Below are positions 22,213-25,425 of a DNA stretch of 40,154 nucleotides, in pieces. The stretch lies in NCBI GenBank assembly GCA_012798115.1, contig JAAZNV010000007.1:89586-129739 (forward strand), in the 5' to 3' direction. Source of the DNA: a candidate division WWE3 bacterium (GTDB taxonomy: Bacteria > Patescibacteriota > WWE3 > UBA101185 > UBA10185). Within the stretch, counting starts at the first letter, position 1. The number at the start of each line of letters is the position of its first letter. The notes under the pieces were generated by a model, which was not told where the DNA came from, made no database searches, and saw only the letters and a program-made list of their open reading frames with translations. A program made the position numbers and the translations under genes.

Positions 22213-22342
22213 GTATGTAGTTTCTTATAAAAGTAATCAAAATAAAGGGATGCCATAAGTGTTGCATGAAGAAAGCAGAAAAGATAATGATTTTAAGAAA
22301 AATATTTTCTGCACTTGACTAAGGGTGTAAAATTTCATACAT

Positions 22343-22393
22343 ATGATAAACAAATTATCTTTTAGATACCATAACTGGCATACTTCTGCGTAA
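22343..22393 (+). CDS. Leader peptide MINKLSFRYHNWHTSA of a ribosome-mediated attenuator
   Basis: 16-codon ORF directly upstream of competing hairpins; Trp codon at 22376-22378. Confidence 0.5.
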   Translation: MINKLSFRYHNWHTSA

Positions 22394-22461
22394 GCGGGTT
22401 TGCAGTTGGTGTCAATGAAGATACATACTTGATTAAACCCGCATAAAGCGGGTTATTTTTA
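22394..22461 (+). promoter_or_regulatory. Transcription attenuator upstream of M20 peptidase
   Basis: Antiterminator GCGGGTTT (22394-22401)/AAACCCGC (22435-22442) excludes terminator AACCCGC (22436-22442)/GCGGGTT (22448-22454) + ATTTTT. Confidence 0.7.
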
Positions 22462-22463
22462 TT

Positions 22464-23801
22464 ATGAAAGAAGGAAATGAACTATTAAATAAATTTAAAG
22501 AAAACTTAAGCGAGCTTATTAGGTATAGAAGTATCTCTACTGATAGTAGTTCTAAAAATGACATTGATAAGACATCAACTGCATTGGCTAGTATGTTTAA
22601 AAAGAATGGTTTTAAGACAAAAGTTCTCTATGGAAAAACCACAAACCCGTACGTTTTTGCAGAATACAAGATAGGTTCAAGCAAAAAGACAGTACTCATA
22701 TATGGCCATTATGATGTAATGCCTTCTGGTGATGAGAATAGTTGGAAGTCAAAACCATTTGAATTGACAGAAAGGTCAGGAAGACTATTTGGCAGAGGTA
22801 GTGTTGATAATAAAGGACAGCTACTTATTCACTTAACTGCAATTTCAGATTTAATTAAGAGTAAGAAGATTTGTTGTAATGTTAAGTTTCTTGTTGAAGG
22901 AAATGAAGAAACAGGAAATATTGAAATAGCTGATCTCATTAAGAGGAATAAAGAATTATTATCTTGTGATTATGTTTTAATATCTGATGGAGAGTTATGC
23001 GGCAACAAGCCAACAATTGAAGCCGGCTTTAGAGGTGGTGGAAACGTCAAAATAACTTACACTACTGCTAAATGTGATGTTCACTCTGGTCTATATGGTG
23101 GAGCTATACCAAACCCAGCTCATGAATTAAGTATTTTAATATCAAAGTTTTATGACAAAAACAACAAAGTAGCAATTCCTGGTTTTTACGAAGGGGCGGA
23201 TAAAATATCTCTTGAGGAAATAAGAAATAATAAGAGCTTGAAATTTAGCTTATCTAAGTTAAATGACTTAACAGGAATAAAAATCTTGAAAACTGAAAAA
23301 GGAATTGATTACTTTACTCAAGTAGGCTTAAGGCCTATGTTAACTGTTAGTGGACTTAAATCTGGTTATATAGGCGAAGGTTTTAATAACATTGTTCCTT
23401 GTTCTGCAGAAGCAAGGGTAAACTTCAGACTTGTTTCTTCACAAGATCCTAAAAATATTATCAGCAGTTTCTTGAAGTTTGTTAAGAAAAACACTCCATC
23501 TTACGTTAAGTATAAAGTTGAAGTAGATAATACTTTTAGTGCAATAAAATTAAATATTAAATCAAAATTAGTTATTGAATTAAAAAGTATTCTTGAAGAG
23601 GTTTATGAAAGTAAGGCTGTTTTTGTATTTGTTGGGGGGAGCGTTCCGGTTGTAAATTTCTTTAGAGACATATTAAATGTTGAAGTTGTATCAATACCTT
23701 TTGGAAATGAAGATTGCAATATGCATGGTTTAAACGAAAACTTTGATTTAAAGTTAGTGGAAAAAGCATTAAAAGTTTCAAAGGATATATTTAGTAAATA
23801 A
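22464..23801 (+). CDS. M20-family dipeptidase/carboxypeptidase
   Basis: VLIYGHYDVMPSG, LFGRGSVDNKGQL, EGNEETGN, catalytic-domain signatures. Confidence 0.92.
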   Translation: MKEGNELLNKFKENLSELIRYRSISTDSSSKNDIDKTSTALASMFKKNGFKTKVLYGKTTNPYVFAEYKIGSSKKTVLIYGHYDVMPSGDENSWKSKPFELTERSGRLFGRGSVDNKGQLLIHLTAISDLIKSKKICCNVKFLVEGNEETGNIEIADLIKRNKELLSCDYVLISDGELCGNKPTIEAGFRGGGNVKITYTTAKCDVHSGLYGGAIPNPAHELSILISKFYDKNNKVAIPGFYEGADKISLEEIRNNKSLKFSLSKLNDLTGIKILKTEKGIDYFTQVGLRPMLTVSGLKSGYIGEGFNNIVPCSAEARVNFRLVSSQDPKNIISSFLKFVKKNTPSYVKYKVEVDNTFSAIKLNIKSKLVIELKSILEEVYESKAVFVFVGGSVPVVNFFRDILNVEVVSIPFGNEDCNMHGLNENFDLKLVEKALKVSKDIFSK

Positions 23802-23803
23802 CA

Positions 23804-23881
23804 ATGAACAAATTAACATATACATATTATTGGCATTTTTGGAGACCTAGTTTTCGGCGGGATGTATCCTTTGTGATTTAG
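23804..23881 (+). CDS. Leader peptide MNKLTYTYYWHFWRPSFRRDVSFVI of a ribosome-mediated attenuator
   Basis: 25-codon ORF starting 2 nt after the M20 stop; aromatic cluster YTYYWHFW; region 2 of the attenuator lies inside its 3' codons. Confidence 0.6.
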   Translation: MNKLTYTYYWHFWRPSFRRDVSFVI

Positions 23882-23932
23882 TTTTATATTAATAATTAAG
23901 AAGGATATAACCCGCTAAGAGCGGGATTTTTT
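23857..23932 (+). promoter_or_regulatory. Transcription attenuator upstream of 81-aa ORF / tRNA-Trp / trpS
   Basis: GCGGGATGTATCCTT (23857-23871) pairs with AAGGATATAACCCGC (23901-23915), excluding terminator CCCGCTaagAGCGGG (23911-23925) + ATTTTTT. Confidence 0.75.
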
Positions 23933-23960
23933 ATATTAAAGAATAGAAAGGACGAGAAAA

Positions 23961-24206
23961 ATGTGTAACTATGTGAATGGAGAATGTACTTGTTTGTATG
24001 TATGGAAAGTAGAGTATCTTACTGAAAGCGGAAAGAGGATGATAAATGAAGGTATTTACTCATCAAGATTGGATGGTAGTCATAAGGATGAAGACATTTT
24101 AAACTATGTTTATAACAAGGTTTTGGATTTAAGTAAGGAGACTGGAGATCTTGTTAAAAGCTTCTTAAAATGTGATTACCATGTTGTTACTGGGGGATAC
24201 AACTAA
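23961..24206 (+). CDS. Uncharacterised 81-aa protein with Cys-rich N-terminus
   Basis: MCNYVNGECTCLYVWKVEY...; AAAGGA Shine-Dalgarno-like upstream; downstream of the attenuator. Confidence 0.6.
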   Translation: MCNYVNGECTCLYVWKVEYLTESGKRMINEGIYSSRLDGSHKDEDILNYVYNKVLDLSKETGDLVKSFLKCDYHVVTGGYN

Positions 24207-24210
24207 AATA

Positions 24211-24247
24211 GATGCTGAGAGACAGTGTTTCTTTGCCTCTCAGCATC
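24211..24247 (+). other. Strong hairpin before the tRNA-Trp promoter
   Basis: GATGCTGAGAG...CTCTCAGCATC, 11-bp stem, no U-tract on + strand. Confidence 0.5.
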
Positions 24248-24262
24248 TTGCAATGATATACT
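24233..24262 (+). promoter_or_regulatory. Probable promoter of tRNA-Trp/trpS
   Basis: TTGCCT-18 nt-TATACT, about 20 nt before the tRNA 5' end; -35 overlaps the hairpin 3' arm. Confidence 0.5.
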
Positions 24263-24282
24263 TTGACCAGGTCGTTTATCTT

Positions 24283-24357
24283 ACCGGCGTAGCTCAAGGG
24301 TAGAGTAGCGGTCTCCAAAACCGTTGGTTAGAGGTTCGATTCCTCTCGCCGGTGCCA
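24283..24357 (+). tRNA. tRNA-Trp (CCA), CCA encoded
   Basis: Acceptor accggcg/cgccggt, anticodon loop CTCCAAA, G73, encoded CCA. Confidence 0.95.
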
Positions 24358-24396
24358 GGCTTTTATTATAATTAAATAATTAAGGTATAAGAATAT

Positions 24397-25425
24397 ATGA
24401 ATGAAAAAACCAAAAGAGTATTAACAGGAATTAGACCTACAGGTCCATTACACCTTGGTCATTATGCTGGTGCCTTGAAGCAATGGATTCCTCTTCAAAA
24501 GGATTGTGAGTGTTTTTTTATGATAGCTGATATACAAGCATTAACTACTCATGTTGACAATCCAAAGTTAATAGAAGATTCAGTAAGAGAGGTTACCCTT
24601 GATTTTTTGGCTGTTGGGCTTGATCCTAAGAAGTCAAACGTTCACTTTGTTCTTCAAAGTGCTATTCCAGAGCTAACTGAACTTACTGTTTACTTAAGTA
24701 TGGTAACTCCATTTACATGGATGCAAAGCAATCCAACAATTCAGACTGAAATGAAGCAACTTGGAAAGGAAATATCTACTGGTTTTATGTGTTACCCTGT
24801 AAGCCAAGCTGCAGATATTTCTTTTGTTTCTCCAGATCCAAATGAATCGAGTGAACCAACTCTTGTTCCAGTTGGAGAAGATCAAGTTCCACATATTAGA
24901 GATAATAACAGTATAATATCTGCTTTTAATAGAAAATACTCTCCTACTTTTGTAGAGTGTGAGGCTCTTCTTGGAGATGTGAAAAGACTAGTTGGTACTG
25001 ATGGCCAATCTAAAATGTCTAAATCGTTAAATAATGCTATTTACTTAAAAGATGATGAGGGAACAATTGAAAAGAAGATAAGGAGTATGTTTACAGATCC
25101 TAATAGAATCCACCCAAATGATCCAGGAACTGTAGAAGGCAACCCAGTTTTCATCTACCACGATGCATTCAATAATAATAAAGAAGAAGTTAAAGATTTA
25201 AAGGAAAGGTACATAAAAGGAACTGTAGGAGACGTTGAAGTTAAAGAAAAGTTAAATGTTGCAATCCAAGAATTTCTAGGGCCAATAAGGGAAAAGAGGA
25301 AAGAATATGAAAAAGAAGATGTTAAGAAGATATTAGAAGAAGGAACAGTTTATGCTAGAGCTATTGCACTAAAAACACTAGAAAGAACAAGGAAAGCAAT
25401 GCACCTAAATTACCCAAGCATTTAA
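24397..25425 (+). CDS. trpS: Tryptophanyl-tRNA synthetase
   Basis: [18 protein letters not shown] (HIGH), [26 protein letters not shown]. Confidence 0.96.

Follow-up and report, generated by a model that had tools for sequence, protein, structure and literature searches.

What might two short open reading frames (ORFs) with tryptophan (Trp) codons be doing on either side of a peptidase gene? The question is raised by a 40,154-nt stretch of contig JAAZNV010000007.1 (positions 89,586 to 129,739; assembly GCA_012798115.1), hereafter the window, from a WWE3 bacterium of the candidate phyla radiation (CPR; Patescibacteria), whose genome (G000) is 0.76 Mb and 95% complete. On the + strand of the window, a gene for a YdjM-like membrane protein is followed by leader 1, a terminator, the gene for an M20 family dipeptidase, leader 2, a second terminator, an ORF of 81 amino acids (aa), a hairpin, tRNA-Trp and trpS (Table 1). 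An earlier account made from the letters alone (the sequence-only reading) had described these elements as co-oriented, and its orientation, coordinates and spacings were all confirmed. We consider it likely that both leaders are classical attenuators that read charged tRNA-Trp and control first the dipeptidase and then a small protein, with tRNA-Trp and trpS being transcribed mainly from a promoter of their own.

Two leaders with alternative folds and placed Trp codons

Each of the window leaders can form either a terminator or a mutually exclusive antiterminator, the latter using the 5' arm of the terminator. When the leaders were compared with 200 dinucleotide shuffles each, none of the shuffles folded as well as leader 1 (z-score -5.5) or leader 2 (z-score -4.0), and five leaders of the relatives G733, G003 and G004 gave z-scores of -2.7 to -8.2. 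Their terminators were the only two terminator-like sites found on the + strand within 21.5-25.6 kb. Moreover, the triple repeat GCGGG...CCCGC...GCGGG had exactly two matches in the whole 0.76-Mb genome, at both leaders; the opposite strand and a reversed control pattern gave no match.

Strict-helix automated detection of attenuators overlooked true leaders, for example in G733, and the flanks of the peptidase genes were therefore inspected by eye after reorienting the loci. Leader 1 followed by M20 was found in seven genomes (G000, G003, G004, G733, G150, G558 and G616), leader 2 after M20 in all of these except G003, and thus the order leader 1-M20-leader 2 in six genomes, which represent three families and two classes of Patescibacteria. 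The counterparts of leader 1 are MDRRLVIKIYRGWHNA in G003, MGIQEFKHYRYWKAA in G004 and MKCMSHTRISYLPFWKKA in G733, with MS[QK][YH]RL[TI]TIK..SFW... in G150, G558 and G616; those of leader 2 are MDIKPLAMHFRWYWNLLLAGGNSYGKT in G004 and MLNIHSFTICFFRLYWKANNFVVRDKT in G733 (each followed by a stop codon). In G501 the order is Trp leader, small protein and M20, and G698 has a similar order with a leader that lacks a clear regulatory codon. A leader 2 candidate at L065/L162 was rejected, as its Trp lies within an overlap with a tRNA gene and its promoter. Since the arrangement recurs in distant relatives, the double Trp attenuator is, on comparative sequence grounds, genuine and has been kept in two patescibacterial classes.

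The position of the Trp codons was assessed by a stall sweep, a thermodynamic calculation with an assumed ribosome footprint, in which a ribosome was set on every codon of 14 leaders with its 3' edge 13 nt beyond the A-site codon and the remaining RNA was folded. With the ribosome on the Trp codon, region 3 (the terminator 5' arm) was mostly bound upstream; it was freed 1-4 codons past the Trp codon (8 in G501) and was largely free with the ribosome at the stop codon. The regulatory Trp codon thus sits just 5' of the point where stalling no longer permits antitermination, as in classical attenuation (Elf and Ehrenberg, PMC1183508), and HH (hisS), TTSTTT (thrS), WW (trpB-like), FFFF and KKTKK (aspartokinase) were found at the same place in other attenuators of the phylum, used as controls. 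Trp was present in 10/10 leaders counted (chance about 1e-6, given 1.39% Trp in the window proteins) and lay just before the switch point (chance about 3e-7, calculated for nine of them); both figures assume independent leaders, an assumption that does not fully hold for related ones. Between leader 2 of G616 and that of G150 and G558, matching changes were found in regions 2, 3 and 4 and both alternative helices are kept, the antiterminator of G616 having one A-C mismatch and one G-U pair.

The same observations bear on the reading in which the small ORFs arose by chance and each hairpin is an ordinary terminator between genes, a reading that draws on how common such ORFs and such terminators are. 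However, each terminator has an antiterminator partner and stands directly 5' of the gene to be silenced, unlike a terminator at the end of a gene; taken together with the presence and placement of Trp and the triple co-variation, this makes the ordinary-terminator reading very improbable.

Classical attenuation agrees with the Trp-codon leader ORFs of the window and seven further genomes, the exclusive folds with a U-tract and the codon placement. The leaders, the place of their Trp codon, the two competing folds, the geometry of coupling and the conservation are all seen in the sequences and their comparison, whereas we infer the stalling itself, its direction, a salvage role for the dipeptidase and a role for the small protein. 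When Trp-tRNA is plentiful, the ribosome would traverse the leader and cover region 2, allowing the terminator to form; when Trp-tRNA is scarce, the ribosome would stall at the Trp codon, region 2 would pair with region 3 and transcription would continue. Three observations count against this mechanism. At equilibrium, the terminators of G733 leader 1 and G150 leader 2 rival or outweigh the antiterminator even when a ribosome is stalled, and antitermination there must therefore be kinetic. Tyr, His and Arg also recur near the leader Trp, and leaders are missing from many M20 homologues of similar score (G006, G010, G043, G248, G282, G626 and others), indicating that Trp control is patchy.

With regard to other sensing mechanisms, T-box control was rejected, since a T-box covariance model gave no match in the window up to E = 1. 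Leader 1 did not match the Rfam family Trp_leader (RF00513), and leader 2 (23834-23934) scored 25.5 bits (E 0.44), below the 41-bit cut-off, which rules out membership in this family. A TnaC-like switch, in which the leader peptide would sense free Trp through ribosome arrest rather than uncharged tRNA, could be suggested by the single Trp and the semi-conserved surround Y[HR]xW[HK]xxA before the stop codon in leader 1 of G000, G003 and G004; C-termini of the W[HK]xxA type also occur in leader 1 of G003, G004 and G733. Conservation of the peptide is weak and confined to one family, and the terminators present are intrinsic. However, this surround is conserved neither between lineages nor between leaders 1 and 2. 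Arrest near the stop codon at high Trp would terminate transcription here, whereas stalling at the Trp codon antiterminates, and the phylum has parallel His, Thr, Phe and Lys leaders, which favours tRNA charging as the signal. A TnaC-like switch is therefore improbable.

The dipeptidase and its probable induction by Trp shortage

Under classical attenuation, the gene governed by leader 1 is that for the M20 protein, which resembles the cytosolic non-specific dipeptidases of the CNDP/DUG1 type; its best matches in the PDB are Sso-CP2, DUG1 and CNDP, it has a catalytic and a dimerisation domain, and the putative metal-site residues H82, D84, D115, E148/E149, D175 and H421 are invariant among its M20 relatives. 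Only one of its 445 residues is Trp, so that the enzyme could be made under Trp shortage. A complete Trp pathway with regulation of its own would, according to the sequence-only reading, have counted against it; in partial answer to this, gene searches found no trpB in G000 and no trpC in 11/11 genomes including it (14/14 control genomes positive in both searches; other trp genes not searched). A shortage of charged tRNA-Trp probably induces the dipeptidase, and attenuator 1 would thereby turn on a putative route of Trp salvage in a cell without signs of Trp biosynthesis.

Upstream of leader 1, a -10-like box lies so close to the ATG that the leader 1 mRNA is predicted to be nearly leaderless. 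Of 13 aligned leaders, nearly all have a -10-like hexamer about 6-11 nt before their ATG (by eye, unscored).

The target of the second attenuator

Leader 2 begins 2 nt past the peptidase TAA (23799-23801). G004 has the same 2-nt gap, the two reading frames of G733 overlap in TAATG, and in G150, G558 and G616 leader 2 is fused in frame into the C-terminus of M20 (ending in ...SSILWKKKTKAKKGKT or ...SSVSWKPKTKAEKGKT before the stop codon). Translational coupling of leader 2 to the end of the peptidase, which had been proposed from the window alone, thus has comparative support, and the conserved geometry suggests that attenuator 2 is read by ribosomes arriving from the peptidase gene. Ribosomes finishing M20 would continue into or restart at leader 2 and re-test the Trp supply about 1.5 kb later, and attenuator 2 would then decide on a small companion protein. 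Between leader 2 and tRNA-Trp of G004 (L046, 2810-2851) there is an extra 14-aa ORF, MYQVYGCEGYHGRW and a stop codon, with stem-loops, a possible third regulatory element.

In the window, the immediate target of attenuator 2 is the 81-aa protein, which had a single near-identical match in 5.8 billion proteins, belongs to no Pfam, NCBIfam or PHROG family and is predicted to fold as beta-beta-alpha-beta (predicted local distance difference test, pLDDT, 84) with no fold match in the PDB. G004 has short ORFs at the small-protein position downstream of leader 2, among them one of 75 aa in the same place, whose homology to the 81-aa protein was not accepted (29% over 56 aa, E 0.013, a single pair). 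Members of another lineage (G150, G558, G616, G733 and G501) share a homologous small protein with a CxxC, an H..RDH and a C-terminal Cys region; this protein comes after leader 2 in G150, G558 and G616 and adjoins M20 in six of the eight genomes that carry it. It has weak, sub-cut-off zinc-finger matches and an AlphaFold2 pLDDT of 82, with no fold match in the PDB. As judged from gene order, it is a small protein that is conserved as the target downstream of leader 2; that the CxxC/RDH protein serves as a starvation regulator is a guess. In four genomes, the CxxC/RDH protein or its attenuator is found behind one and the same conserved upstream gene, ending in ...SAG and a stop codon (L066, L241, L242 and L243).

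The sequence-only reading had instead proposed a nested operon, with attenuator 2 acting mainly on tRNA-Trp and trpS and with graded control of Trp supply and charging by the two attenuators. The genes are indeed co-oriented, the stretch from leader 2 to trpS contains no further classical terminator (the trpS ATG at 24397 is 39 nt past the end of tRNA-Trp), and the linkage of M20, leader 2, tRNA-Trp and trpS is found in both G000 and G004. However, the internal promoter that the same account had noted (TTGCCT-18-TATACT, 24233-24262) is present, and four relatives have kept its -10 part, which lies 20-25 nt 5' of tRNA-Trp in five genomes (G000-G004). Between the 81-aa ORF and this promoter there is a strong hairpin; G004 has a hairpin of unrelated sequence at the equivalent position. 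Furthermore, tRNA-Trp-trpS is joined to M20 only in G000, G003 and G004 and occurs without M20 in the congeners G001 and G002, and G003 has it without leader 2. In G733, the one other lineage with surroundings read through, it is not beside the double attenuator and leader 2 has no trpS downstream, and the genus of G150 has the small protein there. Given the separate -10 box, the M20-free congeners and the separation in G733, control of Trp charging is not a conserved feature, and the nested operon is unlikely, although read-through from attenuator 2 into tRNA-Trp and trpS is possible in the species of the window. Of the earlier proposal, the two sequential Trp attenuators with the first controlling the peptidase stood, as did the synteny up to leader 2, while the assignment of the second to Trp charging and the extension of the synteny to tRNA-Trp-trpS did not. 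Under classical attenuation of the peptidase and the small protein, tRNA-Trp and trpS would be transcribed mainly from their own promoter.

Table 1. Positions of the features of the locus in the window
Feature	Position	Strand	Remarks
-10-like box TGTAAAAT	22328..22333	+	9 nt 5' of leader 1 ATG; from sequence
Leader peptide 1, MINKLSFRYHNWHTSA, then stop	22343..22393	+	one Trp codon, 22376-22378
Leader 1 region 2, GCGGGTTTGCAG, antiterminator 5' strand	22394..22405	+	pairs with terminator 5' arm
Leader 1 terminator hairpin AACCCGC-ATAAA-GCGGGTT, then ATTTTTATT	22436..22454	+	
M20 family dipeptidase of the cytosolic non-specific type, 445 aa	22464..23801	+	Pfam PF01546/PF07687
Leader peptide 2, MNKLTYTYYWHFWRPSFRRDVSFVI, then stop	23804..23881	+	Trp codons at 23831, 23840
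Leader 2 region 2, GGCGGGATGTATCCTT	23856..23871	+	pairs with 23901-23916
Leader 2 terminator hairpin ACCCGCT-AAG-AGCGGGA, then TTTTTTATA	23910..23926	+	
81-aa orphan protein, immediate attenuator 2 target	23961..24206	+	
Strong hairpin without U-tract, between 81-aa ORF and tRNA promoter	24211..24247	+	-21.5 kcal/mol, z -4.3
-10 box TATACT of tRNA-Trp-trpS	24257..24262	+	conserved in G001-G004
tRNA-Trp (CCA)	24283..24357	+	
trpS, tryptophanyl-tRNA synthetase	24397..25425	+	NCBIfam TIGR00233, 272 bits

Elsewhere in the window (18450-20723, - strand, opposite to the operon), two adjacent glycosidase-like genes (GH1; weak GH2/GH5) lie beside a DeoC/LacD-type aldolase gene.

Relation to known systems and wider meaning

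The window leaders share with the classical trp attenuator (E. coli trpL; PMC1262725) the Trp leader ORF, the antiterminator and terminator, the U-tract and a gene just 3'. Unlike it, they target a dipeptidase rather than Trp biosynthesis, usually have one Trp codon (the trp leaders of Corynebacterium and Streptomyces have double or triple Trp codons; PMC1262725), lie at or near the inferred 5' end of the mRNA in the case of leader 1, form two units in series around one gene and have no RNA-family match above cut-off. Aminoacyl-tRNA synthetase attenuators, such as those of trpS2 of S. avermitilis, leuS and pheST (PMC1262725), are alike in mechanism and recall the trpS in this neighbourhood, but the attenuators of the window sit before the peptidase and small-protein genes, and tRNA-Trp-trpS is served by a promoter of its own. 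Anti-TRAP (rtpA/yczA) of Bacillus subtilis is a small zinc-binding protein that is T-box-controlled and induced by uncharged tRNA-Trp (PMC11255114); the CxxC...H..RDH...C features of the small protein in the G150/G733 lineage resemble it as a lead only, while the window has no T-box and no sequence match to it and the 81-aa protein is unrelated. In Salmonella mgtCBR, two translated short ORFs likewise attenuate one operon, both within one 5' leader (PMC3641672), whereas the window attenuators are before and after the first gene and apparently read the same amino acid. In the literature searched, which most subscription journals lay outside, nothing relevant was found on attenuation in CPR, Patescibacteria or Saccharibacteria, nor any system with this exact layout, as the sequence-only reading had supposed. 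The mechanism is known, and the target, the flanking layout and the taxon appear to be new within that literature.

Other attenuator-like leaders were observed in further Patescibacteria (L220, L221, L222, L216, L219 and L191, in G245, G208, G379, G109, G110 and G013), with repeated codons that mostly match the next gene (His-hisS, Trp-Trp-TrpB-like, Thr-thrS and Lys-aspartokinase); the set also includes Phe-rich and His-rich leaders 5' of genes without assignment. Just 3' of M20 in G006 (L035, reverse complement), a Phe-rich leader, MNSSTLNKFKFFFGFNTAKVG and a stop codon, with a terminator precedes a 300-aa Rossmann-type dehydrogenase-like gene. Aromatic-rich leaders with AGV/AGM-type tails, whose Ala-Gly is encoded by region 2, stand before long proteins mostly without a Pfam family in L201 (G003), L185 (G021), L186 (G014), L190 (G015) and L234 (G167).

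Patescibacteria are mostly amino-acid auxotrophs, and to our knowledge, regulation in these reduced, host-dependent bacteria is largely unknown even though such auxotrophy is central to their lifestyle. We hold it about equally likely to be right or wrong that Patescibacteria generally sense single amino acids by attenuation with near-leaderless leader mRNAs, and that the Trp branch has been re-aimed to peptide salvage, with two attenuators chained and a small regulatory protein decided upon. A conserved Trp attenuator on a dipeptidase would let the signal that a CPR cell senses, and its reaction to it, be read at the level of sequence. The attenuator opens peptide scavenging to testing and links Trp starvation with a small, as yet uncharacterised protein that is zinc-finger-like, and leader codons could be used across the phylum to assign regulatory signals to unknown genes.
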